From a virus: 37,219 nt of DNA. The stretch is taken from positions 1 to 37,219 of the IMG/VR virus record IMGVR_UViG_3300046001_009048; one strand, given 5' to 3'. Below the pieces are notes generated by a model. That model did no database searches. It had not been told where the DNA came from and saw only the letters and a program-made list of their open reading frames with translations. The position numbers were made by a program, and so were the translations under genes. Shown here in pieces: positions 2,267 through 36,044 of this stretch. Position 1 is the stretch's first letter. Each line of letters opens with the position of its first letter.

Positions 2267-2998
2267 TCATCTAGAATGATATACTTCGACTGAAGAATTT
2301 AAGACAATATTTGAATAACCATATTTTCTAAAGTTTTCACAAACTACTGCCGTATCACAATCAAATGTATTAAATCTCTCATTGAAATATCCAAACGTCA
2401 AAAATCTTTTAAAAGGTTCCGATTTATAGAAGCAGAAGCAGTTAAATGTTGTCCAAACATTTATTAAACCTAAATTTCTCAGAATAATAGGATTAAAAAT
2501 ATGCCAAGATCTAGAATCTGGATTCTGTCTTGTCCCCCAATCGTCATAAAGATAATGATGTTTGTCATCATTAATCTCTACGCTTCTAGGGGAAATTATA
2601 TCGTAGTCTCCATTATTTATAATATTATCTATTAATGTTTTAGGTTCATATTTTACGTCTGGTTCTACAACTAATATATGAGAACATTTCTCTAGTAATT
2701 TATTATTATAAATTGTTTGATTTCTTGCTTCCGATAAAAGTTTTACTCTTTCTTCATTAACTACGCTACCAAAAGAAGGAGTATTTAATATTTCTAATTT
2801 TATATTAAAATCTGAAAAGAAAGAAAAATCTAAGTTTTTTAATATATCTTGTGTTCCGTCTGTTGAATCATTTTCGTATACAGAAAGATAATAATTGTTT
2901 TGCTTATCAAGCGCTACAATACTTTTTATCTGTTCGTACCAATTATGTAAAAAATTTTTTCTATTTCTAATAATTGTAGAAATTAATATATTTTTCAC
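2267..2998 (-). CDS. Glycosyltransferase (GT2- or GT69-like)
   Basis: A 243-residue soluble glycosyltransferase-like protein. Residues 1-60 contain ISTIIRNRKNF and YENDSTDGTQDIL, a GT-A nucleotide-sugar start that recalls both GT2 and the CAP59 mannosyltransferases (GT69). LSEARNQ (about 89-93) and the acidic EPD (112-114, in HILVVEPDVKYEP) look like the metal-binding region. It probably transfers a sugar from a nucleotide donor to an unknown acceptor. It is the last gene of the 20-kb glycan run and overlaps gmd by 4 bases. Confidence 0.75.
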   Translation of the reverse strand: MKNILISTIIRNRKNFLHNWYEQIKSIVALDKQNNYYLSVYENDSTDGTQDILKNLDFSFFSDFNIKLEILNTPSFGSVVNEERVKLLSEARNQTIYNNKLLEKCSHILVVEPDVKYEPKTLIDNIINNGDYDIISPRSVEINDDKHHYLYDDWGTRQNPDSRSWHIFNPIILRNLGLINVWTTFNCFCFYKSEPFKRFLTFGYFNERFNTFDCDTAVVCENFRKYGYSNIVLNSSVEVYHSR

Positions 2999-4047
2999 TT
3001 ATAGTTCTGTATATCTGATTTGACCATTCTTTCAACTAGTTCATTAAAAGATACTTTTGGTTTCCAATTTAGTTCATTTCTTGCCTCTGATGAATTACCC
3101 AATAAGAGATCTACTTCAGCAGGACGAAAGAATTTAGGGTTAATTTTTACTAACTGTTTGTAATTTCCTTGATTATCTTTAAAATAAAATGCTTCATCTT
3201 CATCTCTTCCATCTCCATTATAGATCCATGATCCTTTTATATCAATAGCTAAAAAAGCTTTTTCAACAAATTCTCTAATACTATGCGTTTCATCTGAGGA
3301 AAGGATATATTCTTTTGGTTTATCTTGATTCAACATTAACCATATACCATTAATAAAATCTTCAGCATGACTCCAATCTCTTTTTGCATCTAAGTTACCT
3401 AGTTCAATTGGAGCAAAATCTATATTATTTTTTAATGCATTATATATTCTAGCAACACCTTTTGTAATTTTTCTGGTGACAAATTCTTCCCCTCGTCTTT
3501 CGCTTTCGTGATTATAAAGAATAGAATGTATTGCAAAAAGATTATAAGAATCTCTGTAAACCTTTGTAATATGTCTTGCGGCTGCTTTAGCTGCACCATA
3601 TGGGCTACGAGGACGAATTGGATGTTTTAAGTCTTGAGGGCTATATAAAACATCGCCCATTTCTTCACTAGAACCCGCTGAATAAAATCTACAATTAGGA
3701 GCATATTTTCTTATAGCTTCTAAACATCTAAGCACACCAAGTGCGGTTGCATCAAAAGTCTGTAAGGGAATTTGCCAGCTACTACCAACGAAAGATTGTG
3801 CCGCAAAATTAATAAAATAATCTGGCTTTATGTCTTTTACAATTTCATCTATAGAATTACTATCAGATAAATCTCCTATTATAAATTTAAATCTTTCATT
3901 ATTTAAGTTATGTTGTATATTCTCTAGATTGGGATTAGAACTTCTTCTTCTAACACCATAAACAAAATAATTTGTGTTATTTAATATATAATCTACCATA
4001 TAAGATCCATCTTGACCTGTAACGCCGGTAATAATAACTTTTTTCAT
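2995..4047 (-). CDS. gmd: GDP-mannose 4,6-dehydratase
   Basis: A 350-residue extended SDR enzyme that converts GDP-D-mannose to GDP-4-keto-6-deoxymannose, the precursor of fucose, rhamnose, perosamine and colitose. It has the NAD(P)-binding GVTGQDGSY (8-16), SAGSSEEMG with the active-site Ser/Glu (about 126-129), YGAAK with Tyr150 and Lys154, the family block HESERRGEEFVTRKIT, LGNLDAKRDWSHAEDF, and FRPAEVDLLLGNSSEA near the end. Length is normal for Gmd. Phage gmd genes are known from other aquatic phages. Its product is the natural substrate of a ColD-type dehydratase such as the one at 11427-12590. Confidence 0.95.
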   Translation of the reverse strand: MKKVIITGVTGQDGSYMVDYILNNTNYFVYGVRRRSSNPNLENIQHNLNNERFKFIIGDLSDSNSIDEIVKDIKPDYFINFAAQSFVGSSWQIPLQTFDATALGVLRCLEAIRKYAPNCRFYSAGSSEEMGDVLYSPQDLKHPIRPRSPYGAAKAAARHITKVYRDSYNLFAIHSILYNHESERRGEEFVTRKITKGVARIYNALKNNIDFAPIELGNLDAKRDWSHAEDFINGIWLMLNQDKPKEYILSSDETHSIREFVEKAFLAIDIKGSWIYNGDGRDEDEAFYFKDNQGNYKQLVKINPKFFRPAEVDLLLGNSSEARNELNWKPKVSFNELVERMVKSDIQNYK

Positions 4048-4056
4048 TATATAATA

Positions 4057-5028
4057 CTAATATTTATTTTTATAAAATTCTATAGTTTTTTCTAAACCAT
4101 GTAAAAAATCAGTTCTAGGATACCAATTCAATTCTTTATTAATCTTCGTATTATCTATAGCGTATCTAAAATCATGACCTTTCCTATCTTCTACAAATTT
4201 AATGTAGTCTTCTGGATTAACTTGTAATATTTTACAGATGTTAGATATAATTTCTAAATTAGTTTTTTCGCAATCTCCACCAATATTATATGTCTCGCCA
4301 ATCTTTCCATTTTTAACAATCTCAAATACAGCTTCGCAATGATCTATTACATAAATCCAGTCTCTAATATTTTTTCCTGTACCATAAACAGGTATTTTTT
4401 GATTATTTAATATTGAATTTATAACTACAGGTATAAATTTTTCATTATGTTGATATGGGCCATAATTATTAGAACAATTAGATATTGTTATAGGAACTTT
4501 AAATGTATGATAATAAGCTCTAGCGAGCATATCGGCTGAAGCTTTAGAAGCGGAATAAGGAGAATTTGGTGCATAGCAAGAAGTTTCTGAAAATTTTCCT
4601 TCGTGTCCTAAACTGCCGTATACTTCATCTGTAGAAATTAAATGAATTCTTAAGTTTTCTTGTTTACATAATTCTAAAAGATTAAATGTTCCAATTATAT
4701 TAGATCTCAAAAAGTCTCTAGGATTTGATATAGAATTGTCAACATGAGTCTCTGCGGCGAAATGTATTATATGTGATATCTTATGATCTTTTAACACTTG
4801 AATAAATTTCTTAAAGGTCTGAGGATCTTCTAGATGATCTAACCAAAAATCATAAAAATGATATTTTGGATTGTCTTTAAAATCTTTTGCATTATTTATA
4901 TTTGCAGCTGCGCTTAATTTACTTGGACAATCTATATTTACTATAGAAGATATGGAATCCTTATTAATTATAGTTCTAATAAAATTAGATCCTATAAATC
5001 CTAAACCTCCTGTAACTAAAATATTCAT
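4057..5028 (-). CDS. rmlB: dTDP-glucose 4,6-dehydratase-like SDR
   Basis: Extended SDR of the RmlB family, 323 residues from the chosen ATG. It shows VTGGLGFIGSN (5-15), FAAETHVDNS, ISTDEVYGSL with the Thr-Asp-Glu catalytic set (133-135), YSASK (Tyr158, Lys162), NNYGPYQ, VYGTGKNIRDWIYV and RKGHDFRYAID. These are typical of enzymes that make dTDP-4-keto-6-deoxyglucose. An in-frame ATG 36 bases further upstream is possible, but 5028 starts just before the conserved nucleotide-binding strand and overlaps the previous stop as ATGA. A CDP- or UDP-sugar substrate cannot be excluded. Confidence 0.88.
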   Translation of the reverse strand: MNILVTGGLGFIGSNFIRTIINKDSISSIVNIDCPSKLSAAANINNAKDFKDNPKYHFYDFWLDHLEDPQTFKKFIQVLKDHKISHIIHFAAETHVDNSISNPRDFLRSNIIGTFNLLELCKQENLRIHLISTDEVYGSLGHEGKFSETSCYAPNSPYSASKASADMLARAYYHTFKVPITISNCSNNYGPYQHNEKFIPVVINSILNNQKIPVYGTGKNIRDWIYVIDHCEAVFEIVKNGKIGETYNIGGDCEKTNLEIISNICKILQVNPEDYIKFVEDRKGHDFRYAIDNTKINKELNWYPRTDFLHGLEKTIEFYKNKY

Positions 5029-5771
5029 GGTAATAAAATTGTTTGTTTGTTTACTTCTTCCCAATCTGCAAATGGTGATAGAAAATGCGTGTGCATATGA
5101 GTAGAAAATCCAGGCATAAAACTTAAAACTATTCGATTATAAGGTTCTTGGGTTAAAATATGAAATCTTGTGTTATCCGCTTTACCAGAAATATGAATTT
5201 CATAATCTTTGTCGAAGAGTTGTTTGCTTAATATAAAGGAACCGCAAGTGTTAGGTACAGTTCTAAGATATCTATAAGGAGTAAAATAGATTTGTGATTT
5301 TAAATCATGGTACATGCCCCATTCTGTATTCTTCATATCTGGATTATTTCTTGTATATTTATCGCCGTGATCATATAAGGATATATAAGAATTATTTATA
5401 TTATAATTTGGATTTGTTTGATATAAGAATTCAACTGCGTCAACCCAAGGCAAATGAAGGTAATCTTGTTCCAAGACATAAATTATATCATTATCTGCTA
5501 ATTTTTGTTCTTTAATATATTGAAAAGTCATAGTATTTGACTTAAAATCTGTTCCAGCATTAATTAAATGAATATCAAATTTATATTTGTCTTTATATTT
5601 TAAAATAAAACTATTTTTAATAGGCCCATCAAAAACTACTGTTAATTTCGCTTTATTAAAATTTAGCGTATCTAAAAAATTCTTAAAACATTTCTCTAAT
5701 GAAAAATAATTTGGTCTACATTTATTTCCTACCTCTGGATAACTTGTAGCTCGATAGAATATATGTATCAT
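5025..5771 (-). CDS. Putative GT-A glycosyltransferase
   Basis: A 248-residue protein with a GT-A-like layout: TVVFDGPIKNSF near residue 45 and an acidic site E101-Q-D103 in IIYVLEQDYLHLP that could hold the metal and nucleotide sugar. No signal peptide or membrane segment is seen. The His-rich end (STHMHTHFLSP) may complete the active site. Its stop overlaps rmlB as ATGA and its start overlaps the acyltransferase by 4 bases, so it is part of the glycan operon. Donor and acceptor are unknown, and I do not recognise a numbered family. Confidence 0.6.
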   Translation of the reverse strand: MIHIFYRATSYPEVGNKCRPNYFSLEKCFKNFLDTLNFNKAKLTVVFDGPIKNSFILKYKDKYKFDIHLINAGTDFKSNTMTFQYIKEQKLADNDIIYVLEQDYLHLPWVDAVEFLYQTNPNYNINNSYISLYDHGDKYTRNNPDMKNTEWGMYHDLKSQIYFTPYRYLRTVPNTCGSFILSKQLFDKDYEIHISGKADNTRFHILTQEPYNRIVLSFMPGFSTHMHTHFLSPFADWEEVNKQTILLP

Positions 5772-6373
5772 AGATTATTATATTTAAACCTAGCTGGATT
5801 TCCAAACCAAACTTGATTATCGGGTATATCTTCTGTAACAACACTACCAGCGCCAATTAAACAATTATTACCAATTTTTATTTTTGGTAAAATCGTAGTA
5901 TTTGCTCCTACAAAAGTATTATTACCAATATTTACATTGCCTAATAAACAACACATAGGACTAATCTCACAATATTCTCCAATTTTTACATCGTGATGAA
6001 GTTGTACTCCTACATTAATTAGTGAACCAGATCCAATCTTGACCATTGGTTCAATGAAAACATTTTTTAATATAATAATATTATTTCCGAGATCAACATC
6101 TTTTGATAAGAATGAATCAATATATTGATAATCTCCCAAACCCTTTTCGTATAACTTTTTACTTATATCTTTTCTATTTTTTGGTCCAGATACGGCTAAG
6201 ATAAAATGAGTAAATTTTTCAGAAATTTCATCAGCTATTTTAAAATTTTTAAAAAATTCTTCATATATATTATTATCATTATACAAATAAAAATCTTCTT
6301 TTATAATAATAGGATTATTTAATATTTGCTTGCACAATCCTCCTGTGCCAAAAATTAAAATTGTATTTTGCAT
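5768..6373 (-). CDS. Sugar O/N-acyltransferase (NeuD/PglD type)
   Basis: A 201-residue two-domain acyltransferase. Residues 1-60 form a small Rossmann-like domain (LIFGTGGLCKQI). From about 90 on there are hexapeptide repeats of the left-handed beta-helix (IGSGSLIN, IGEYCEIS, IGNNTFVG, IGNNCLIG). HHDVKIGEYCEI (His126-His127) matches the catalytic histidine region of PglD, which N-acetylates a UDP-4-amino sugar using acetyl-CoA. It lies beside an aminotransferase-like gene and rmlB, so acylation of a 4- or 3-amino-6-deoxy sugar is a reasonable inference. The acyl group is unknown. Confidence 0.88.
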   Translation of the reverse strand: MQNTILIFGTGGLCKQILNNPIIIKEDFYLYNDNNIYEEFFKNFKIADEISEKFTHFILAVSGPKNRKDISKKLYEKGLGDYQYIDSFLSKDVDLGNNIIILKNVFIEPMVKIGSGSLINVGVQLHHDVKIGEYCEISPMCCLLGNVNIGNNTFVGANTTILPKIKIGNNCLIGAGSVVTEDIPDNQVWFGNPARFKYNNL

Positions 6374-6379
6374 TTTAAA

Positions 6380-7009
6380 TTATTTTTTATATATCTCAAA
6401 TTTTGATAGATCTGGATAAGGTAATTCTAAATCTTCATTATGTTTAGGCGTTCCATCTGTATTATAAAATTGATTCATTAGAAGTAATCCTCTAGCCGCT
6501 AGTTCTGGCATCATATAAAAATTCCAACCAAGCATATCAAAATTATCGTCATGATACGAACATTCTCTTCTACCACTATATCTAGCTCTTTTAAACCAAA
6601 GATAAGCTTTATAATCATCAGTTAAAATTGCTCCTCCTTTACTAAGTTTAAAGTGTTTATATGGACCGGTAAAAGAGATGCACATATGGCTATTAGGTAG
6701 ATACATATTTGAAGTAAATCTTAAAGCACTATCCCAAATTTTTGTAGGTTTTAATTGGTATGCACCTTTTATTTTATTACTATTTACTGGTATAAAATTA
6801 ACTTTTCCTCCAGCATGTATAATTTCACAAGGAACAGATGGATAAGTTCTAGCTGGGATATCTATTACTTGTCCTTTTACATTTTCATAGACTAAAGATA
6901 AAAATAAAGCATTACTAGCATTATCTACAGTTACGACATAAGGTGCGCCTGTATATTTTGATAAAGCTTGTTCAAATTCTTCTGTTATCTTATAAATTCC
7001 ATTAGCCAT
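6380..7009 (-). CDS. Short DegT/DnrJ/EryC1-type aminotransferase
   Basis: At 209 residues this is only about half the usual 370-400 of the sugar aminotransferases. It keeps the PLP core: VTVDNASNALFLSL, PARTYPSVP, Asp93 in WDSALR (pairs with the PLP ring nitrogen), and Lys118 in SFTGPYKHFKLSKGG, placed 8 residues before the final Gly as in active aminotransferases. The C-terminal small domain is missing or very reduced, while the gene ends cleanly next to the acyltransferase. It may be an active compact form, need a partner, or be decaying. With rmlB and the acyltransferase it suggests an amino-sugar branch. Confidence 0.8.
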   Translation of the reverse strand: MANGIYKITEEFEQALSKYTGAPYVVTVDNASNALFLSLVYENVKGQVIDIPARTYPSVPCEIIHAGGKVNFIPVNSNKIKGAYQLKPTKIWDSALRFTSNMYLPNSHMCISFTGPYKHFKLSKGGAILTDDYKAYLWFKRARYSGRRECSYHDDNFDMLGWNFYMMPELAARGLLLMNQFYNTDGTPKHNEDLELPYPDLSKFEIYKK

Positions 7010-7010
7010 T

Positions 7011-7826
7011 TTATTTGCACAATATTTTTAATGTGTCCTCTAGAGAATATTTAGGTTTAAATCCTAAACTATATAATTTATTTATATTCATGTGGAAATC
7101 TTTCGCTTGAACTTGTTGGTGAAAAAGCGGAGGATCTATGAAGTTGATTTTACTTTCAGAATTTAATATTTTTTTACAATAATAAATAATGTCTATTAGT
7201 TTTACGCTTTCTGTATTACCAATATTATAAATTTGATCTTTTTCGCCTTTATCTAAAACTAATTTTATAGCTCGACAAACATCTTCTACAAAAAGAAAGT
7301 TTCTATAATTATCTCCTTTATATACGTTGACCTCTTCATTCCTTTTCAATCTTTCAATTAGATATTCTGTCGCATTCTTTTGTGAATTAGCGCCAGCATC
7401 TTTTCCGATAATATTACATAATCTTAATATCCTATAATTTATACCAAAAGTTTTACAGTAAGATTCTAAAAATTGTTCTTGGGCATATTTTGCAATAGAA
7501 TAAAAACCCTTTGGATTACAATAATCATTCTCTGAATTTGTAATAAGATTGTTTTTGCCATATACAAACCAGGAAGATATAAGATTGAAAGTATTATCTT
7601 TATTTAAATTAGAAAACATTTCTGTTAATAATAATAAATTTGTTTTTATTTCTAATGTTGGATCTTTGAAAACGGAATAATTTGAATTTGTTCCTCTGAA
7701 ATATAGAATGTCTTTATTTTTTGATATAATTGAAGATCTGTCCTCGGCAAAAGATTCTATTGGATATAACTCCATCCATTTTTTACCAATAAAACCTGTA
7801 GAGCCAAAAACGCTAATTTTGTTCAT
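7011..7826 (-). CDS. NAD(P)-dependent sugar epimerase/reductase (extended SDR)
   Basis: A 271-residue SDR with GSTGFIGKK (8-16), SSWFVYG (84-90) and the catalytic YSIAK (Tyr109, Lys113), followed by NYRNFLFVEDVCRAI and IYNIGNTESVKL typical of sugar epimerases and 4-ketoreductases. It overlaps the RfbH-type gene by 14 bases, so it may act on the 3-deoxy keto sugar made by that enzyme, as reductases of abequose and paratose pathways do. It is shorter than RfbJ (299). The exact product cannot be named from sequence. Confidence 0.8.
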   Translation of the reverse strand: MNKISVFGSTGFIGKKWMELYPIESFAEDRSSIISKNKDILYFRGTNSNYSVFKDPTLEIKTNLLLLTEMFSNLNKDNTFNLISSWFVYGKNNLITNSENDYCNPKGFYSIAKYAQEQFLESYCKTFGINYRILRLCNIIGKDAGANSQKNATEYLIERLKRNEEVNVYKGDNYRNFLFVEDVCRAIKLVLDKGEKDQIYNIGNTESVKLIDIIYYCKKILNSESKINFIDPPLFHQQVQAKDFHMNINKLYSLGFKPKYSLEDTLKILCK

Positions 7827-9129
7827 ATTCTTTTATCTTTTGTTCTATGTAAGATATATTTTCTTCGTCAATAGTTGGAGAACAGCCAATAAAGAATACT
7901 AGATCTAGAACTTTATTTGATTCTGGATAATTTTTATAATTATCTAAATATTTATAACCTTTATGCATTAAAAGATTACCTGCAAAATAATTTCTGGTTT
8001 GGATTCCATTATTTTCTAAATAATTTACAAGTTTCATCTTTTCTTCTTTTGATTTACATATAAGAGGAACGCCAAATGGAACCCAATGAGTTTTATCAAA
8101 TACATTGACACTTCTTAATGAATTTAGATTTTTCTGAAATATAGAGAGTATTTTATCAAGATTCGATTTTCTTTTTTGGCAGATAAAATCAAGCTTTTTA
8201 AGTTGCTCAATTCCTATTGCAGCTTGTAAATCTAAAGGTTTTAAGTTATATCCAATTCTATTGAATACATACTTATGATCTATAATTGTCTCTGGAAAAT
8301 CTTGGAGCCAGTTAGAGAATCTTTTATTACAAGATCCTTGGCATAATAGATTTGCAGTACCAATGCACCAGCAATCTCTTCCCCAAGTTGCATAACTTCG
8401 AGCTAGTTTTATTATTTCTTCAATATTAGAGGATACCATTCCACCTTCTAGAGTTGTGATTTCATGAGCGGGATAAAAGGAACAAGACGATACGACTGCG
8501 TATTCATTTAAATACTTATCATTCCATTTTGAACCCAAAGAATCACAATTATCTAAAAGAAGTTTAATCTTTGGATATTTATTTAATAGATTGATTAATT
8601 TATCCATGTCTGGTGGATTACCTAATACTGGAGATAAAAAGATTGCTACAGTTTTATCTGTTATTTTTTCTTCTATTTTAGATAGATCAAAATTTAATGT
8701 GTCCCATTCAATATCAATAAATACTGGCTTTAAATTATTGTGAATAAGTGGAGATGTAGTTGTAGGAAAACCTACCGCAGACACAATCACTTCATCATTA
8801 TCTTGCCAATTAAAATATTCCTTACAAGCTGCTACTAATAGTAAATTAGCAGAAGAGCCAGAATTTGTGAAGAAAGAGTATTTTTGATTTATTTTTTTGC
8901 TAAATTCTTTCTCGAATTTCGCACAAACTTCTCCGCTAGAACTCCATTTGCCAAATAAAAGAGTCTCTATTGCTGCAGAGATTTCATTTTCATCAAAATA
9001 TGCGCCAGAATAATAAACTTTATTTTTTAAATCTGGATTTAAATTGTGAGCAAACTTTGGTAAGAATCCATACTTCTTTGTGAGTTGTTGGATAAATAAT
9101 TTTATATCTTCTTTATAAGAATTTTCCAT
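7813..9129 (-). CDS. rfbH: CDP-4-keto-6-deoxyglucose 3-dehydrase type (RfbH/DdhC/AscC)
   Basis: A 438-residue PLP enzyme of the RfbH/E1 class. The usual catalytic lysine is His222 in SFYPAHEITTLEGG, the change that turns the fold from an aminotransferase into a dehydrase. It also has the full [2Fe-2S] ligand pattern C-X57-C-X-C-X7-C (Cys195, 253, 255, 263). This agrees closely with the known E1 pattern and length (437). Such enzymes remove the 3-hydroxyl in the 3,6-dideoxyhexose pathway (ascarylose, abequose, paratose, tyvelose, yersiniose) and need a reductase partner (E3), which I do not see in this window. CDP-glucose synthesis genes are also absent here. Confidence 0.93.
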   Translation of the reverse strand: MENSYKEDIKLFIQQLTKKYGFLPKFAHNLNPDLKNKVYYSGAYFDENEISAAIETLLFGKWSSSGEVCAKFEKEFSKKINQKYSFFTNSGSSANLLLVAACKEYFNWQDNDEVIVSAVGFPTTTSPLIHNNLKPVFIDIEWDTLNFDLSKIEEKITDKTVAIFLSPVLGNPPDMDKLINLLNKYPKIKLLLDNCDSLGSKWNDKYLNEYAVVSSCSFYPAHEITTLEGGMVSSNIEEIIKLARSYATWGRDCWCIGTANLLCQGSCNKRFSNWLQDFPETIIDHKYVFNRIGYNLKPLDLQAAIGIEQLKKLDFICQKRKSNLDKILSIFQKNLNSLRSVNVFDKTHWVPFGVPLICKSKEEKMKLVNYLENNGIQTRNYFAGNLLMHKGYKYLDNYKNYPESNKVLDLVFFIGCSPTIDEENISYIEQKIKEYEQN

Positions 9130-10631: not shown

Positions 10632-11434
10632 CTAACTAAAGTTTTAAAATTATTTACTTTTTCTTTTGGTATTAGAATTAAATCTTGCGCCCAATAATTC
10701 GGAAGTATGTCAAATAGCTTTAATGTATAGAAGTCCACGCTATTATAGTTCTTATTTATCAAGAAATTATATAGTTCATTTTCAGTAGATGGAAACCATT
10801 CTATATGAACAAGCGGACGAAATTTATCTATATACTTATCCATAAAATTTAATATTTGGACATCAAATCCTTCTGTATCCAATTTAATTAAACTTAGATT
10901 AGATATATTTAAATTATTTAAAAAATTATCTATATCTATTGTTCTGACAAATCTCTTTAAAGGATATTCTCCAATATAAGAAGTTTTATGCTGGCTACCA
11001 CCTACATCGTTATTATAATTAAATTTATCAACTCCGTAAACATTAGAAGCGGCATAGTTATAATTCTCTAAATTAAGTTCTTTATTTAAAGCGGAATTAA
11101 TCTGAAGTCTTTGCCATGCTGGTCCACATTCAAAATTTATACATCTTCCATTCTTTCCAGCCATTAAAGCTAAAGATAAGGATGTATCGCCATCGTAAGC
11201 TCCAACATCAATAACTTCTGAATTATTTGGAATAAAATCTTTCATTTTATCAACAAATTCTCCAAATGACTTTGCGTATGGATCATTTTCTATATCTTCG
11301 GTTGATCTATGAGGAACGTTATGTAAATATTTAATTTTATAATTTTCAGAGTTGAATAAGAAATCAAATTCCTCTAGATGGGTTACCTCTTGTACATTTT
11401 CAATTTTTGTAATTTTTGTATTATATTTATTCAT
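10628..11434 (-). CDS. FkbM-family SAM-dependent methyltransferase
   Basis: A 268-residue methyltransferase of the FkbM (Methyltransf_21) type. The SAM-binding motif is VIDVGAYDGDTSL (about 74-86), followed by CINFECGPAWQRLQ, where the acidic residue holds the ribose, and LIKLDTEGFDVQIL, the family signature near residue 180. These enzymes O-methylate sugars or similar hydroxyls. The gene overlaps the ColD-type gene by 8 bases, so methylation of a deoxy sugar or of the growing glycan is a fair inference. Confidence 0.9.
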   Translation of the reverse strand: MNKYNTKITKIENVQEVTHLEEFDFLFNSENYKIKYLHNVPHRSTEDIENDPYAKSFGEFVDKMKDFIPNNSEVIDVGAYDGDTSLSLALMAGKNGRCINFECGPAWQRLQINSALNKELNLENYNYAASNVYGVDKFNYNNDVGGSQHKTSYIGEYPLKRFVRTIDIDNFLNNLNISNLSLIKLDTEGFDVQILNFMDKYIDKFRPLVHIEWFPSTENELYNFLINKNYNSVDFYTLKLFDILPNYWAQDLILIPKEKVNNFKTLVR

Positions 11435-12590
11435 ATTTTTTTAATATTTCTATTTGTTTATCTGTTATAGTTGGATATATTCCAAAATAAAAACCATTTG
11501 TATGCAAAAATTCGCTATTTTTAAAATCTTTAAAATTTGCATATTGTTTATAACAAGTCTGTCTAAGAAGATTGCCAGATATTATTGGTCTAATTTCTAT
11601 TTTATTATCTTTACAGAATTGTTTAAACATATCTACTACAGATCTATCTTTAGAAATAATCGGGAAACAAAAAGGTGCGGACATTCTATCTGAATATTCT
11701 TGAGGAAGAATAATATCTTTTAATGATAAAGTATTTTTAATTTTATTGAATATTTCAACTCTTTTGTTTAGATAATTTTCAATCCTATTAAAATCTAATA
11801 GACCAATAAAAGCATTAATATCTGTGTTTCTAAAATTATTACCTAAAGTGCAAAAATCAAATGATTCATCAACATCTTGATTTGAATATTTCTTATCGTC
11901 TAAACCATATAATTTCAATCCTCTAGTCATACCATGATTTCTATTCATTATAAAATATTCATATTCTTCTTGAGAATTAGTAAAAATAAACCCACCCTCT
12001 ACACTTTGTACTTGATGTCCGAAGTATGTACTTGTACTGCTTGTAAAATATGAGGATATATTTTTATCTTTATATTTACCAAGTGTATTTTCGCAGTTAT
12101 CTAAAAATATTTTAACCTTATATTTTGCTTCTAACTCTTTTAATTTTTTAATATCTGGAACCTGACCAATTAAAGACACACAAACAATTGCTGCGACCTT
12201 TTTGTAATTTTTCTTAAGATATTTTTCTGTTAGATTCAAATCTAAACAAAAATCTTCTAAAGAAATGTCTATAAATTTTGGCGTAAAACCCTCTCTTATA
12301 AAAGGAGATATTGAAGTCGTCCAAGTTGTTGAGGGAAATATTACAATATTCTTATTTTTAGTATAAACCTTATCTTTTAAGAACATAGCCATTAAGGTAT
12401 TTGCAGTAGATCCACTAGATACAAATACAGAATACTTTGAGCCTACAAAGCGCTTGAATTTATCTTCGAATTGTTTTACATATTTCCCTTGAGTCCAAAA
12501 ATTAGCCTTATTTAATATAAATCTTGATATTTTAATTCTATCTAATAGATTAAAACTAGAATTATTTAGGGGCCATTTAAAATTATTCAT
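11427..12590 (-). CDS. colD: ColD-like GDP-4-keto-6-deoxymannose 3-dehydratase
   Basis: A 387-residue PLP enzyme very close in length to E. coli ColD (388). The catalytic lysine is replaced by His192 in TYFGHQVQSVEGG, equivalent to His188 of ColD. It also shares GKYVKQFEDKFKRFVGSKY, VSSGSTANTLM, DNCENTLG and NRNHGMTR-like segments with ColD. The RfbH cysteine set is absent, as expected. ColD removes the 3-hydroxyl of GDP-4-keto-6-deoxymannose on the way to colitose. The gmd gene of the same operon makes exactly that substrate. A ColC-like final enzyme is not clear; one of the SDR genes might serve. Confidence 0.88.
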   Translation of the reverse strand: MNNFKWPLNNSSFNLLDRIKISRFILNKANFWTQGKYVKQFEDKFKRFVGSKYSVFVSSGSTANTLMAMFLKDKVYTKNKNIVIFPSTTWTTSISPFIREGFTPKFIDISLEDFCLDLNLTEKYLKKNYKKVAAIVCVSLIGQVPDIKKLKELEAKYKVKIFLDNCENTLGKYKDKNISSYFTSSTSTYFGHQVQSVEGGFIFTNSQEEYEYFIMNRNHGMTRGLKLYGLDDKKYSNQDVDESFDFCTLGNNFRNTDINAFIGLLDFNRIENYLNKRVEIFNKIKNTLSLKDIILPQEYSDRMSAPFCFPIISKDRSVVDMFKQFCKDNKIEIRPIISGNLLRQTCYKQYANFKDFKNSEFLHTNGFYFGIYPTITDKQIEILKKYE

Positions 12591-17965: not shown

Positions 17966-18748
17966 TTATAACGTAGATAATAATAGTTGTCTATAAGTAT
18001 TTTGTATGCCTTTTTCCAAACCTATTGTAGTTATTGGCAGATTGCTTTGTCCACAATAGAATTGCAAATCTTTATTATTTTGTAGATTGACTTTTACTTT
18101 ATGTTCTCCTAGATTATTAATGAATTCGCTTATGTCTTCTAATGTATGTTTTTGTTTATAAGAACAATTAATTTCTTTATCTAGTTTATCATTTAAAATA
18201 TAATAATCAACAAGATTAATCAAATCTTGCATATAGAAAAAATCCATAACTTTATTAGTAAATATATCAATCGGCTCTTTGTTTATGTATTTAAATAAAT
18301 TACATTTAATAAATCTTGTGTTTAATTCATTCTTGTCAAAAACTGCAAAAATTCTTATATTATAAAAATTATCAATTTCTTTGATTGATTCTGCTATTAT
18401 TTTTTTACTTAAACCGTATGGTGTTTCTGGTTGGAATATCTCTGCGCCTGAACCGAAGGATATGAGTTTATTAAAATGATCTTTATTTTCAAGTAAATTG
18501 TAATACATTTTAAGGTTTACATCCATGACATTTGCAGTATCTTTAACTAGTCTCATACCGCCTTTAATTGCTGTATGAATAACTATATCATAGTATTCAT
18601 TTTCTTCAAACCATCTTTTTGTTTGATGTGGATTTGAAAGATCGAAATCTAAAATCGAAATAGATTTACAATTATATTTTCTATTAAATACAGAATATAA
18701 AGATCTTCCTATATATCCATTTCCTCCTGTGATTAATATCTTTAACAT
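17966..18748 (-). CDS. NAD-dependent sugar reductase/epimerase (SDR)
   Basis: A 260-residue SDR with ITGGNGYIGRSL (6-17), ISFGSGAEIF with Ser100, and catalytic YGLSK (Tyr111, Lys115). This motif set resembles GDP-fucose synthase and RmlD-like reductases, though it is short. It is directly downstream of the PanB-like gene (2-base gap) and the TPP enzyme, so it may reduce the branched keto sugar formed there, as YerF-type reductases do in yersiniose synthesis. That link is inferred from gene order. Confidence 0.75.
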   Translation of the reverse strand: MLKILITGGNGYIGRSLYSVFNRKYNCKSISILDFDLSNPHQTKRWFEENEYYDIVIHTAIKGGMRLVKDTANVMDVNLKMYYNLLENKDHFNKLISFGSGAEIFQPETPYGLSKKIIAESIKEIDNFYNIRIFAVFDKNELNTRFIKCNLFKYINKEPIDIFTNKVMDFFYMQDLINLVDYYILNDKLDKEINCSYKQKHTLEDISEFINNLGEHKVKVNLQNNKDLQFYCGQSNLPITTIGLEKGIQNTYRQLLLSTL

Positions 18749-18749
18749 T

Positions 18750-19679
18750 TTAAGATTTCCAACTTTTAGAATTCATCACATTCTGTAGCTCTTCTTCTTT
18801 AATTGGGTAGATATAATCTTTGCATGGATATTTATTTTGTTTTACTTCTTCTATATATTTTCTAATTGCTAGTGTTGTTATATTTAATATTCCATCTTGT
18901 CTTGTATCAATTCCGTATTTTTTAATATTCTCTTGAGATTTAATAGTATCTGAATAATTATCTACAATTTCTGAAATATAACATTTTGCAAACCAAGGTC
19001 TAAAATTTGGATGTAAGCCCAAAAGATCATGGGCAATTATCAATTGTCCATCTACTAAATCTCCTGCTCCAATTCCCATAATTGGAATTTTTAATTGTAT
19101 AGATATCTGTTCCGCAACTTTCGCGGGTACTGCTTCTAATAGGATCATAGAACATCCCGCGTATTCTATTGCTTTTGCATCGTCAAGCATTTCTTCAAAA
19201 CTTTCCTGAGTTTTCCCTTGCACTCTATATCCTCCAAAACTAACAGCACTTTGAGGAGTTAATCCGAGATGTCCAACGACTAAAATACCAGCATTAACAA
19301 TTGCTTTGATTTTATCTTCGACTCTTTTACCGCCTTCCAACTTAATAGCATCACATCCTGCTTCTTTAACAAATCTAAGAGCATTTTTTACAGCTTCTTC
19401 CTCGGATACTTCATATGATCCTTGAGGCATATCACCAACTATAAATGTATTTGGTGCTCCTCTTCTTGCGGCTTTAGCAAAACTTATCATTTCATCCATC
19501 GTCACGGGATTTGTAGTTTCATATCCTAATTCAACCATTCCTCCAGAGTCTCCAACTAAAATCATATCAATTCCAGCTTTTTCTGCTGCAAATGCGATTG
19601 GATAATTATAAGCAGTTATCCAAGTGATTTTTTCATTTAGATCTTTCATTTTATTGAAAGTAACAATATTTTTTTTCAT
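18750..19679 (-). CDS. panB: PanB-like ketopantoate hydroxymethyltransferase homologue
   Basis: A 309-residue PanB homologue (usual length about 264) with the Mg2+ and catalytic residues in place: VGDSGGM (Asp44), GDMPQGSYE (Asp83), AIKLEGG (Lys113, Glu115), GHLGLTPQS (136-144), LLEAVPA (Glu182) and GIGAGDLVDGQ. PanB joins a C1 unit from methylene-tetrahydrofolate to 2-ketoisovalerate in pantothenate synthesis. Here no panC or panD is near; the start overlaps the TPP-enzyme stop as ATGA, in a sugar operon. A use in sugar or side-chain building is therefore more likely than coenzyme A supply. The Phe of DMPFGSY is Gln and the C-terminus is extended. Confidence 0.88.
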   Translation of the reverse strand: MKKNIVTFNKMKDLNEKITWITAYNYPIAFAAEKAGIDMILVGDSGGMVELGYETTNPVTMDEMISFAKAARRGAPNTFIVGDMPQGSYEVSEEEAVKNALRFVKEAGCDAIKLEGGKRVEDKIKAIVNAGILVVGHLGLTPQSAVSFGGYRVQGKTQESFEEMLDDAKAIEYAGCSMILLEAVPAKVAEQISIQLKIPIMGIGAGDLVDGQLIIAHDLLGLHPNFRPWFAKCYISEIVDNYSDTIKSQENIKKYGIDTRQDGILNITTLAIRKYIEEVKQNKYPCKDYIYPIKEEELQNVMNSKSWKS

Positions 19680-20428
19680 TTTATCATCTCCCTTTCTCTT
19701 TCTTGGTCGTCTAAGAATGGATACATATCATCTAGTCCACATTGAATATTTTTACCTGTACTTTGATCTTTTTTAAAAGAAACAGTTGGAATAACCTCTT
19801 GATCTTCTTTACAAGAGACTTCGCATAAAATTGGTTTCTTTTGATTGATAATTTCTTTAATATTATCTTCTAATCCTTGGTTACTAGATATTTTAATATA
19901 ATCTAATTCATATGTTTCTGCTACTTTTTTTAGGTCTGGAAACCACAATCCTTTTCCTGCGCTAGTTCCGTAGACTCTTTTTTCATAGAATTTATTTTGT
20001 GTATTTTTAATACTTAAATAGCCTTTATTGTTCCATATAAAAATCTTGATTGGTATATTAAAATTTTTTATTGTTGCTAATTCTTGTAGATTAGAATTAA
20101 AGCTTCCATCCCCTGTAATTACCAAGATATTCTTGGTTGAATCTCCAAAATAGGCTCCTATACCAGCTGGTAAAGCAAAGCCCATATCTGCTTGCGCGCC
20201 AGACAAAACAAATATTTGGTTTAATTTTAATTTAAGGTTTTGACATGGAACATAGATTGCCGAACCTGCATCGCAAACTATGATCTCTTTTTCTGTCATA
20301 TTTTTATTAAGAATCTCTATAAAAGAATATAGATTAACGCCATTCTCATCATTTTTAAACTCATCTATAAATATTGGCCATTTATTTTTCCAATATTTAC
20401 ATTTTTCTATCCATTCTTCTTTATTCAT
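19676..20428 (-). CDS. TPP-dependent enzyme, C-terminal (PP) part
   Basis: A 250-residue TPP-binding half of an acetolactate-synthase-like enzyme. ITGDGSFNSNLQEL (105-118) to IWNNKGY (131-137) form the Mg-TPP motif GDG-x25-NN, and SGAQADMGFALPAGIG (76-91) is the family block before it. The opening MNKEEWIEKCKYWKNKWP is normally internal in full-length enzymes of glycan clusters. It starts 8 bases before the end of the gene holding the PYR and middle domains. Together the two halves reach 585 residues, the usual full length. It may be a true two-subunit enzyme or a frameshifted one. Confidence 0.88.
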   Translation of the reverse strand: MNKEEWIEKCKYWKNKWPIFIDEFKNDENGVNLYSFIEILNKNMTEKEIIVCDAGSAIYVPCQNLKLKLNQIFVLSGAQADMGFALPAGIGAYFGDSTKNILVITGDGSFNSNLQELATIKNFNIPIKIFIWNNKGYLSIKNTQNKFYEKRVYGTSAGKGLWFPDLKKVAETYELDYIKISSNQGLEDNIKEIINQKKPILCEVSCKEDQEVIPTVSFKKDQSTGKNIQCGLDDMYPFLDDQEREREMIK

Positions 20429-21428
20429 TAAAAAAATCCTTCAAGTCCATTTGAATAAATTTATCTATTTTATTATCGTTAAATTTATTATATTCATTCT
20501 TATCTATATCTACCATAATTTTATAAGATTTAGGTGAAAATAAGTTTTCATCATATCCTGTATGAGAACAATTTAAAGAACAGCCTAATATCAGTAATAG
20601 ATCACAATTTTGAATAGCAAAATTTCCAGATCTACTTCCCTTGATGCCAATTGTTCCTATGTTAAGAGGATGCTCGTATCCTAAGATTTCTATGCCTAAA
20701 TATGTTGTGACAAATGGCAAATTATTTTGTTCTATAAAATTTTTAAAATCTTTATTTGTTTTACTTAAAACTACTCCATAACCACCTAAAACTAAAGGAC
20801 GATTGTACTGTTTGATTATATTTAAAACATTCGAGAGTTCATTATTTTTTATATTAATATTTTTAGATTCAAATTCTTTATAATTCTCTGGCATTTGAGC
20901 ATGTTGAATATCACTTGGTATATCAAGCCAAACTGGTCCCATTCTGCCAGATAAAGCTTCATTAATAGCACAATCTAATTCATAAGCAACTTCATCTACT
21001 GACTCTATAATTTTTGCATATTTTGTCATAGATTTAACTGTAGAGATTATGTCATGTTCTTGAACACCATATTTTCTTATAGATATATTTTTATTCTTAT
21101 TGATAAAAAAACTAGTTTGATTTAATTTAACATTTCCAGATATAAATAATATAGGAATACTATCTTGCCATGCATCTAGAAGAGAGGTCAAACAATTTGT
21201 TCCTCCGCATCCAGTAGTTGGGTTAACTACAGATAATTTTTTTGTTACTTTACTTTCTCCTATGGCTGCATGACCCGCGCCTTGCTCATGATGAAAACAA
21301 ATATATTGTATATCATTATTTTTTATAAAACCATCATTAAGACCACCTGCTCCACCGCCCATTATTCCATAAACATACTTTACTCCTAATTCAACTAATC
21401 TTTTGGCAATATAATCTGAAACTCTCAT
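20421..21428 (-). CDS. TPP-dependent enzyme, N-terminal (PYR and middle) part
   Basis: A 335-residue protein with the PYR domain, including catalytic Glu48 in FHHEQGAGHAAIGES and NPTTGCGGTNCLTSLLDAW, followed by the middle domain (RPLVLGGYGVVLS, GTIGIKGSRSGNFAI, DLLLILGCSLN). This is the acetolactate synthase/pyruvate decarboxylase architecture without the PP domain, which is encoded in the next, overlapping frame. In a sugar operon with an RfbH enzyme the closest precedent is YerE, which adds a two-carbon unit from pyruvate to a 4-keto-3,6-dideoxy sugar. That role is inferred. Confidence 0.88.
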   Translation of the reverse strand: MRVSDYIAKRLVELGVKYVYGIMGGGAGGLNDGFIKNNDIQYICFHHEQGAGHAAIGESKVTKKLSVVNPTTGCGGTNCLTSLLDAWQDSIPILFISGNVKLNQTSFFINKNKNISIRKYGVQEHDIISTVKSMTKYAKIIESVDEVAYELDCAINEALSGRMGPVWLDIPSDIQHAQMPENYKEFESKNINIKNNELSNVLNIIKQYNRPLVLGGYGVVLSKTNKDFKNFIEQNNLPFVTTYLGIEILGYEHPLNIGTIGIKGSRSGNFAIQNCDLLLILGCSLNCSHTGYDENLFSPKSYKIMVDIDKNEYNKFNDNKIDKFIQMDLKDFFNE

Positions 21429-32917: not shown

Positions 32918-34279
32918 TTATCTAGTTTCTCGCCATTGTAAGCTTGCAAAAGTATTGCTTGATGCAGCGCCAATTCCAGATCCAACTATAACAAAAACAT
33001 TACTATTTGTGCTATCAATATTTTGACTAATATAACCTCTTTTTGCGCTTGATAAAGTTTGTATTTGAGATTGAGAACTAAATTTTCCTGCTCCCTGACC
33101 TCCAGCAATACAATATCCAGCATCTATTAACATACCACTGGCAAAATTAACACTTGTTGCACTAGTATTATATTGAACAACGCTTTCATCGTTTACGCTT
33201 ACCCAAGTTCCGCCAACTATTTGACCAGTACTTGGAATTCTCCAAAGTTCATAAGTTACTGCATCTACAGCTGTATAAATATTAGCCATGTTTGGTCTAA
33301 CAACGCTTCGGTTTGGTTTACCATAATATCCAGTCTTTAGTGCTATTGCGATTAGTGGAAGTTGGCTAGTTGTGGCTACTGATCTTGCTGTAAGATTTCT
33401 TGCTGCAAAATCTACTCCTGCTTCACTGTATCCACCTTCACTCATTACTGTAGCGCAAATTTGATCCATAGTATCTGTTCCAACTGCTACAGCGTAATTT
33501 CTAATTTCACATCTAACTGGAAGATTTGGGTTACTCCAATAAACGGTTAGTTTGTTATTGCTATTATAAAATTCATGAGCAATTATTGATTGACCATCAT
33601 GTACAAATCCAGCTCGTAGTCTTCCTACTCCTAACCATTGAAAATCTGCAGTGAATAATTGTGTTTTTGTTATATCTATATTAAATTGAGAAATTCCACT
33701 TCCATTACATTTATCTATATTCCAATTGTTTTGGGTTATTCTTTCTTCTGATACAAATCCTGAAACATCGTTTCTTAAAACAAGAGCTAGTGTTCCATCT
33801 CCACTTTGTTCAAAAAATATACCATTATAATCATCAAAAAGACCAATTCTTTTATTTGTGCCAGCTCTATATCCTGTAAAATTAAAACTTTGAAAAGTCA
33901 ATTGACTTTTTCCTGGCATGTAGTGATGATACATTCTGCTTTGGTGAATTGTAAAATCATTAGCTCCAGTTCCAACTTGGAGCACTGCTTTTGCTTGATT
34001 AATATTAAATGTTGTATTAGAATTTGTACCACTAGTTTTAGTTAATAATTCTGTTTCTTCTCCGTAAACGTGAGAATAATCTGCAAGAGTAAATGGATTT
34101 GATATTCTTTGGCGACCAAATGCATCAATATTAGTTGGACTTGAAGAATTCCTTAAAAGAGATTCAATATCATCTATTTTACTAAAATCTATTGGTTGAT
34201 AATAACCACTATCGCTATTGTAAACTAACCCGATTCTTTTTTCGGAATGATCTGGAGATGTAAAAAAATTATCGGCCAT
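32918..34279 (-). CDS. Large beta-rich virion protein
   Basis: A 453-residue protein. The N-terminal module (SEKRIGLVYNSDSGYYQPID then FSKIDDIESLL) matches the next gene. The rest is beta-strand rich with no catalytic motif: INQAKAVLQVGTGANDFTIH, GKSQLTFQSFNFTGYRAGTN, KRIGLFDDYNGIFFEQSGDG, and ITKTQLFTADFQWLGVGRLR, a lectin- or fibre-like layout. It is probably a virion decoration or fibre protein. The gene starts at an ATG 10 bases after a GTGTAA motif. Confidence 0.75.
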   Translation of the reverse strand: MADNFFTSPDHSEKRIGLVYNSDSGYYQPIDFSKIDDIESLLRNSSSPTNIDAFGRQRISNPFTLADYSHVYGEETELLTKTSGTNSNTTFNINQAKAVLQVGTGANDFTIHQSRMYHHYMPGKSQLTFQSFNFTGYRAGTNKRIGLFDDYNGIFFEQSGDGTLALVLRNDVSGFVSEERITQNNWNIDKCNGSGISQFNIDITKTQLFTADFQWLGVGRLRAGFVHDGQSIIAHEFYNSNNKLTVYWSNPNLPVRCEIRNYAVAVGTDTMDQICATVMSEGGYSEAGVDFAARNLTARSVATTSQLPLIAIALKTGYYGKPNRSVVRPNMANIYTAVDAVTYELWRIPSTGQIVGGTWVSVNDESVVQYNTSATSVNFASGMLIDAGYCIAGGQGAGKFSSQSQIQTLSSAKRGYISQNIDSTNSNVFVIVGSGIGAASSNTFASLQWRETR

Positions 34280-35648: not shown

Positions 35649-35657
35649 TAATAAACT

Positions 35658-36044
35658 TGGACCAGTGCGGAGTCGAACCGCTTCTTTTAGTGAATTTAAA
35701 TTAAAATACTACAAGTTTAGTTCTTTTTGTTTTTAGCTTTGTATAGAGAAAAAACAAACATACTCAGCGATTTTATTTTGAATACTAAACCTATAAAGAA
35801 TAAAAAAACTTTATAAATAAAGACATCTAAATACGCAATTATCCATTAGATGTGTCATGGTAATCACGCTGTAGAACTTAAGCTACAGAAGCGGTCTCCT
35901 CGACTAGAGAAACTCTAGCAGAGATATGACCTTTGTATTTAGCTGTTTTGGCAGTTAATACTTTTAAGGCTTTTTAAAGAGACCCACCTAAACCTCTACT
36001 TGCATTCTAATTCCGATTCCTAAAATCGAAACCAAATCTGGCCC
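35658..36044 (-). ncRNA. ssrA: tmRNA (transfer-messenger RNA)
   Basis: A 387-base tmRNA. The 5' end GGGCCAG pairs with the 3' CTGGTCC with a G3-U pair and discriminator A, the alanyl-tRNA synthetase identity signal. The 5' part has TTTGGTTTCGAT and AATGCAAGTAGAGG, matching conserved tmRNA blocks. A T-arm (AGCGGTTCGACTCCGCA) is near the 3' end. CCA is not encoded. The tag frame opens at GCC (35952-35950), preceded by TTAACT with U at -5 and A at -4 as required, and runs 24 codons to TAA (35880-35878). The stop lies in the loop of the hairpin CTGTAG/CTACAG (35869-35888), as in E. coli. tmRNA with SmpB frees stalled ribosomes. Confidence 0.95.
35878..35952 (-). other. tmRNA tag reading frame, 24 residues
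   Basis: The tag begins AKTAKYKGHI and ends VEETASVA before TAA. It is longer than usual (8-15 in most bacteria), basic in the first half and acidic near the end, and does not finish in the LAA type that ClpXP and ClpAP read. Mycobacteriophage Bxz1 is a known case of a long, unusual phage tag. Confidence 0.8.

Follow-up and report, generated by a model that had tools for sequence, protein, structure and literature searches.

What a homologue of the pantothenate enzyme PanB does among the sugar genes of a virus is the question raised by IMGVR_UViG_3300046001_009048, an AT-rich virus record of 37,219 bases that was analyzed over its whole length (hereafter the window). On its minus strand, a thiamine diphosphate (ThDP)-dependent carboligase split into two cistrons, a PanB paralogue and a short-chain dehydrogenase/reductase (SDR) follow one another. 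An earlier note had read this trio as a possible sugar-branching module in which PanB adds a hydroxymethyl group to the side chain of the sugar. The branching part of that idea is well supported, while hydroxymethylation directly on the sugar is not the reading that we favour. We consider it somewhat better than an even chance that the trio belongs to a phage module that makes a C-branched deoxysugar, in which PanB supplies a hydroxymethylated 2-oxo acid donor to the ThDP enzyme and the SDR reduces the product.

The Pfam matches and the junctions confirm the split enzyme, the PanB homologue, the reductase and the ATGA join that the earlier note had described. The first half of the YerE-like carboligase (20421-21428, minus strand) contains the TPP_enzyme_N and M domains (PF02776 and PF00205, E 5e-30 and 5e-27) and the second half (19676-20428, minus) the ThDP-binding TPP_enzyme_C domain (PF02775, 1.4e-30); they are followed by the PanB paralogue, of the DMPQ subtype (Pantoate_transf; 18750-19679, minus; PF02548, 2.6e-95), and the extended, Epimerase-type SDR (17966-18748, minus; PF01370, 3.5e-13). 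The two ThDP cistrons overlap by 8 nt (ATGAATAA), the second of them overlaps PanB in the ATGA at 19676-19679, and PanB and the SDR gene are 1 nt apart; such start/stop overlaps suggest that the genes are translationally coupled. A sequencing error or one-off frameshift was ruled out as the origin of the split, because the viral loci L002/L003 (mutually identical), L012, L014 and L015 have their enzyme divided alike, in the same relative frame and with overlaps of 11-14 nt. The remaining relatives encode the enzyme as a single gene of about 590-610 codons. A run of 6-7 T residues stands just ahead of the junction in the window (20421-20440, minus), L002, L014 and L015, and since it is not present at the junction of L012, a shared slippage signal is unsupported.

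Both halves of the ThDP enzyme carry the expected motifs, GDG in the C half and HHEQ with the catalytic Glu in the N half. When compared with the Protein Data Bank (PDB), the N half matched 5ahk, which we take to be a Pseudomonas YerE-like enzyme, with 164 bits and JanthE from Janthinobacterium (8rph) with 157 bits, against 130 bits for the best acetohydroxyacid synthase (AHAS), and the C half matched JanthE best (125.6 bits, AHAS 80). The full-length relative in L004 gave the same picture (398.7 bits for JanthE, 267 for 5ahk and 260 for plant AHAS), which makes JanthE the closest solved structure to the module enzyme, although it has a CDG motif where the window has GDG. JanthE is a YerE-like carboligase (PMC12188165, PMC12247030). 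In our tree, which included no YerE or ErwE sequence, the classical AHAS enzymes grouped together (100/100) to the exclusion of every module enzyme, and the deeper forks, including those joining JanthE and 5ahk to the window clade, were weakly supported. By these comparisons, the window enzyme is nearer to the YerE-like carboligases than to classical acetolactate synthases, and the proposal of a YerE-like carboligase in a deoxysugar cluster is supported. We also considered a phosphonate route, in which the PanB gene would encode a phosphoenolpyruvate mutase-like protein and the ThDP enzyme would be a phosphonopyruvate decarboxylase, and rejected it because the PanB gene matches nothing but PanB in Pfam and NCBIfam.

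The linkage of the genes is not peculiar to the window. Scanning viral sequences with PanB gave 14 loci, to which a further scan added one, making 15 contigs (14 distinct) with close PanB relatives; in all 15, a ThDP gene lies no more than 2 kb from PanB and on the strand of PanB, and 13 have an RfbH-like gene in the examined flanks. From a viral scan with the ThDP alignment, we kept the best 80 YerE-like loci, 53 of which have a PanB-family neighbour, always on the same strand and within 60 bp in 52, with an SDR directly after PanB in 50 of the 53; an RfbH/DegT-type 3-dehydratase gene (RfbH- or ColD-like) is nearby in 73 of the 80. ThDP and PanB genes are also paired in bacterial genomes (L031-L034, L040, L045, L049, L050, L059, L061, L062 and L077), on opposite strands in L049 and L050. 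For the other 56 PanB loci in the set L051-L110, all outside module-type clusters, no ThDP gene was found in the flanks. The co-occurrence of the two genes is far beyond chance, and the earlier note's suggestion to look for the trio elsewhere turned it up in dozens of viral contigs, with ThDP-PanB pairs in bacteria, so the proposal does not fall for want of recurrence. The phage and plasmid reference collections held no annotated phage with the trio, their matches resembling host IlvB or canonical PanB. Our literature searches returned nothing specific on PanB in an O-antigen context or as a phage auxiliary metabolic gene, and in the literature open to searching, from which most subscription papers are missing, we found no previous account of a pairing between PanB and a YerE-like enzyme.

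The window PanB exceeds the NCBIfam panB equivalog cut-off and, like the ketopantoate hydroxymethyltransferase (KPHMT) of E. coli (1m3u), retains every catalytic residue (D44, S45, D83, K113, E115, H137 and E182, with E. coli D45, S46, D84, K112, E114 and E181 all kept), but it differs in its substrate pocket (Q86, M201, L213 and I215, corresponding to F87Q, I200M, I212L and V214I in E. coli numbering). When all aligned E. coli positions were ranked for how well they separate 97 module-clade from 67 canonical PanBs, I212 and V214 came out best, being Leu and Ile, respectively, in all 97 of the former, followed by I200, which is mostly Tyr in the module clade. The E. coli variants I212A and V214G have a changed substrate scope (PMC7610986; PMC7611260), and the larger pocket residues of the module clade suggest a smaller nucleophile. 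In PanB trees, all of the PanBs located next to a ThDP gene fall in a single clade (100/93 and 100/98), with the housekeeping PanBs outside. Moreover, 14 of the 20 nearest bacterial carrier genomes have a second, canonical PanB, and the second copies included in the tree group with the housekeeping PanBs (the rows L206, L208 and L209, labelled as second copies, are the module copies themselves). PanC is missing in four of the six bacterial carriers that have the module-type PanB alone. The window PanB thus fails as an orthologue of the housekeeping enzyme with its canonical pocket, given its separate clade and the fixed changes at 212 and 214, and probably serves something other than pantothenate; a departure of PanB from its pantothenate role, as the earlier note had assumed, is supported as probable by the separate clade and the canonical second copy in most bacterial carriers. 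The opposite view, that PanB is an auxiliary metabolic gene boosting host pantothenate and coenzyme A and lies in a glycan region by chance, could appeal to the equivalog cut-off and to some PanC-bearing genomes that depend on a clade member. We judge it very unlikely indeed, because dozens of viral contigs have PanB next to a YerE-like gene, a canonical PanB is kept separately in most bacterial carriers, and a Pfam scan of 30 window proteins revealed no panC domain.

Two observations concern DMPQ-type PanBs in other settings. Those without a ThDP neighbour adjoin methionine, homoserine or threonine genes (L035, 1067-3396; L043, 4420-10473, also L043/L044; L046, 4319-5698), which is suggestive of a 4-hydroxy-2-oxobutanoate/homoserine route; we give this hint little weight because L043 has a homoserine dehydrogenase and a pyridoxal phosphate (PLP) enzyme neighbour best matching methionine gamma-lyase. 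In Spirochaetes and Elusimicrobia, look-alike proteins of ~360-420 aa adjoin the DMPQ-type PanB (L036, 2767-4029; L037, 9096-10184; L039, 3729-4994; L046, 6595-7851), and those of L037 and L046 have no Pfam or NCBIfam match.

What PanB might provide is indicated by the donors of the related carboligases. YerE proper takes pyruvate, whereas the YerE-like ErwE rejects pyruvate and favours 4-hydroxy-2-oxobutanoate and its longer homologues, as reviewed, and the donors of JanthE reach up to 4-methyl-2-oxopentanoate (PMC12247030). Because PanB acting on pyruvate would yield 4-hydroxy-2-oxobutanoate, the donor preferred by ErwE, PanB is most likely the donor supplier of the carboligase. The PanB-less viral loci bear on the same question, since the slot beside their ThDP gene is often filled by a gene for a possible 2-oxo acid-forming enzyme: an HMGL-like protein nearest to 4-hydroxy-2-oxovalerate aldolase (L185, L187 and L188), a class I aminotransferase (L175, L176 and L178) or, as a weak match, an HpcH/HpaI-type aldolase (L124, L126, L128 and L131), the slots of L187, L124, L126, L175 and L178 being assigned by resemblance alone. 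L132, L180 and L183 have neither partner type, and L120 and L121 have a DJ-1 family gene. In the tree, L176 and L178, with the aminotransferase in the slot, are the sister group of the ThDP clade of the window; in addition, the L004 PanB clusters with the window PanB while its ThDP enzyme clusters with those of L112/L117, two loci whose PanB is of a different subtype. Such disagreement between the PanB and ThDP trees is as expected if partners were swapped. In several viruses, LdpA-like Fe-S proteins come after the HpcH-type gene by the YerE-like ThDP gene (L124, 9589-10728; L131, 6450-7607).

These data also bear on the order of the reactions. The same genes would fit a scheme that starts, as with YerE, with transfer of a two-carbon unit from pyruvate to the sugar by the ThDP enzyme and goes on to hydroxymethylation of the resulting sugar methyl ketone by PanB, and E. 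coli KPHMT does tolerate aldoses of four or five carbons as its electrophile (PMC7610986). However, the residues with which PanB handles a free, Mg-bound 2-oxo acid are all kept in the window protein, a methyl ketone on a sugar lacks a carboxylate, the pocket residues are larger rather than smaller, and the slot is often taken by enzymes able to make free 2-oxo acids. We therefore regard action of PanB directly on the sugar branch as unsupported and this order as very improbable. Alternatively, 2-oxoisovalerate or 2-oxobutyrate could be the substrate of PanB, whose product would then be ketopantoate or a different branched hydroxymethyl 2-oxo acid, and the ThDP enzyme could transfer the bulkier acyl group to the sugar. 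The donor range of JanthE, the intact catalytic residues and the PanC-bearing genomes with a clade-member PanB only would all accommodate this, but the larger residues at 200, 212 and 214 argue for a smaller nucleophile, the ErwE precedent concerns 4-hydroxy acids unbranched at C3, and a 3,3-disubstituted donor would presumably be sterically hindered in addition to a ketone. We consider such a bulky donor unlikely, and prefer pyruvate as the substrate of PanB.

For the other side of the carboligation, that the module ThDP enzyme accepts a ketone, that of a deoxy keto sugar, is suggested indirectly by the RfbH/DegT-type gene in most of the related loci. The window encodes an RmlB-type NDP-glucose 4,6-dehydratase (4057-5064, minus; TIGR01181, 402 bits, cut-off 365; NDP, nucleoside diphosphate), which forms a 4-keto-6-deoxy sugar nucleotide, and an RfbH/E1-type 3-dehydratase (7813-9129, minus; NF011936, 342 bits, under the cut-off of 423), which strips the C3 hydroxyl of a 4-keto-6-deoxyhexose and has a His in place of the PLP Lys and cysteines at 253, 255, 263 and 267. 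As judged from their families, these two can make a 4-keto-3,6-dideoxyhexose. A second 3-dehydratase candidate, a ColD-like DegT-family protein with His for Lys (11427-12590, minus; PF01041, 8.5e-51), and an SDR resembling GDP-mannose 4,6-dehydratase (Gmd-like; 2995-4047, minus; TIGR01472, 360 bits, under the cut-off of 415) could stand in for them, the first on the way to a 3,6-dideoxy-4-keto acceptor and the second as a source of the 4-keto-6-deoxy sugar nucleotide. The SDR of the trio has the GxxGxxG and YxxxK motifs in the alignment, the latter as YGLSK, and its predicted model (predicted local distance difference test score, pLDDT, 94) is nearest in a fold search to GDP-fucose synthase and NDP-ketosugar reductases; it is probably the reductase of the branch ketone. 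This set of enzymes speaks against another possibility, that the product of the trio is a short-chain acid in free form, or an acyl group, destined for ester or amide linkage to a sugar. Although L031 and L032 have the ThDP-PanB pair without RfbH nearby and the window has a hexapeptide acyltransferase (5768-6373), an RfbH/DegT-type gene accompanies 73 of 80 related loci as in the YerE acceptor pathway, the ThDP enzyme is closest to ketone-accepting carboligases, and the SDR fold is of the sugar-nucleotide reductase type. An ester or amide is thus quite improbable.

Taken in order, the C-branched deoxysugar would arise as follows. The 4,6-dehydratase and the RfbH-type 3-dehydratase would produce an NDP-4-keto-3,6-dideoxyhexose, and the PanB paralogue would hydroxymethylate a small 2-oxo acid, most likely pyruvate, to 4-hydroxy-2-oxobutanoate, with methylene-tetrahydrofolate or formaldehyde as the one-carbon source. 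The split ThDP enzyme would decarboxylate this donor and place a 3-hydroxypropanoyl group on the C4 ketone of the sugar, leaving a tertiary alcohol, a step modeled on the kinship with JanthE and YerE and on the reported donor preference of ErwE. The SDR would then reduce the branch ketone to give a 4-C-(1,3-dihydroxypropyl)-3,6-dideoxyhexose, and neighbouring glycosyltransferases would join the branched sugar to a glycan. The gene content, the conserved split, the linkage, the clade membership and the changes in the pocket are observed directly; substrates, step order and product are proposed from sequence and by analogy.

This scheme parallels the yersiniose A pathway (RfbG/RfbH and YerE) in its RfbH-type 3-deoxygenation followed by a YerE-group ThDP carboligase and branch-ketone reduction, and the window has both the 4,6-dehydratase (RmlB, over its cut-off) and the RfbH-like enzyme (with the E1 His/Cys set, below its cut-off). 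It differs in having a hydroxymethyltransferase, PanB, as an integral neighbour, in the split, phage-borne ThDP enzyme and in a donor that is probably not pyruvate. The erwiniose pathway of Pectobacterium atrosepticum is similar in that its YerE-like ErwE reportedly needs a 4-hydroxy-2-oxo acid donor (PMC12247030); ErwE is likened here by that preference, not by sequence, and the same review does not mention donor synthesis by PanB. Engineered pathways share the proposed product: in these, aldolases form 4-hydroxy-2-oxobutanoate from pyruvate and formaldehyde. Those enzymes are other or engineered ones, whereas the one proposed here is a natural member of the PanB clade.

Several points weigh against our interpretation. 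Among the 20 nearest bacterial PanBs, about one in two lacks a ThDP gene in its vicinity, and the PanB clade therefore has further roles too. PanC is present in three Chloroflexi metagenome-assembled genomes in which an L212/I214-type PanB is the sole one detected, and also in the L042 and L038 genomes, where the only PanB is of the DMPQ type; these assemblies may be incomplete. Some module-clade PanBs may thus still make ketopantoate. Because PanC-bearing genomes rely solely on this type, the L212/I214 swap is not diagnostic. The ThDP-PanB pairs of L031 and L032 lie apart from any RfbH gene, and the match of the alternative partner to HpcH is weak. Finally, the acceptor sugar and its nucleotide carrier are uncertain, because the RfbH gene of the window is ~9 kb away from the trio and the ColD-like/Gmd-like route is also encoded.

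The rest of the window fits a tailed phage, with a UvsX-like recombinase (753-1895) and a virion structural protein (32918-34279). Between 2267 and 22338, the main open reading frames are on the minus strand and are mostly sugar-nucleotide and glycosyltransferase-type genes. A shortened DegT-family protein of 209 aa with an SKGG motif (6380-7009, minus) is possibly a remnant or a minimal enzyme, and a weak sulfotransferase-like match, just under the cut-off (PF13469; 28580-29140, minus), lies among glycosyltransferase-like genes. A complete transfer-messenger RNA gene is found at 35657-36044 (minus; Rfam RF00023, 90.5 bits; ARAGORN tag AKTAKYKGHISARVSLVEETASVA).

Beyond the window, we tentatively propose, at slightly less than an even chance, that one clade of PanB has taken on the dedicated role of a pyruvate hydroxymethyltransferase, in effect a 4-hydroxy-2-oxobutanoate synthase, that serves YerE-like carboligases, and that phages pair a fixed carboligase core with interchangeable donor-makers (PanB, HMGL aldolase, HpcH aldolase or aminotransferase), giving undescribed branches such as 4-C-(1,3-dihydroxypropyl)-3,6-dideoxyhexose. 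In the accessible literature, we found no account of the synthesis of the 4-hydroxy-2-oxo acid donors used by YerE-like enzymes, and if the proposal is true, a neighbouring, swappable donor-making gene would explain their source. Gene order would then help in predicting which side chains C-branched sugars carry, and a vitamin biosynthesis family would gain a new function. Environmental phages put much into rare sugars, and viral 'panB' annotations should not automatically be read as pantothenate auxiliary genes.

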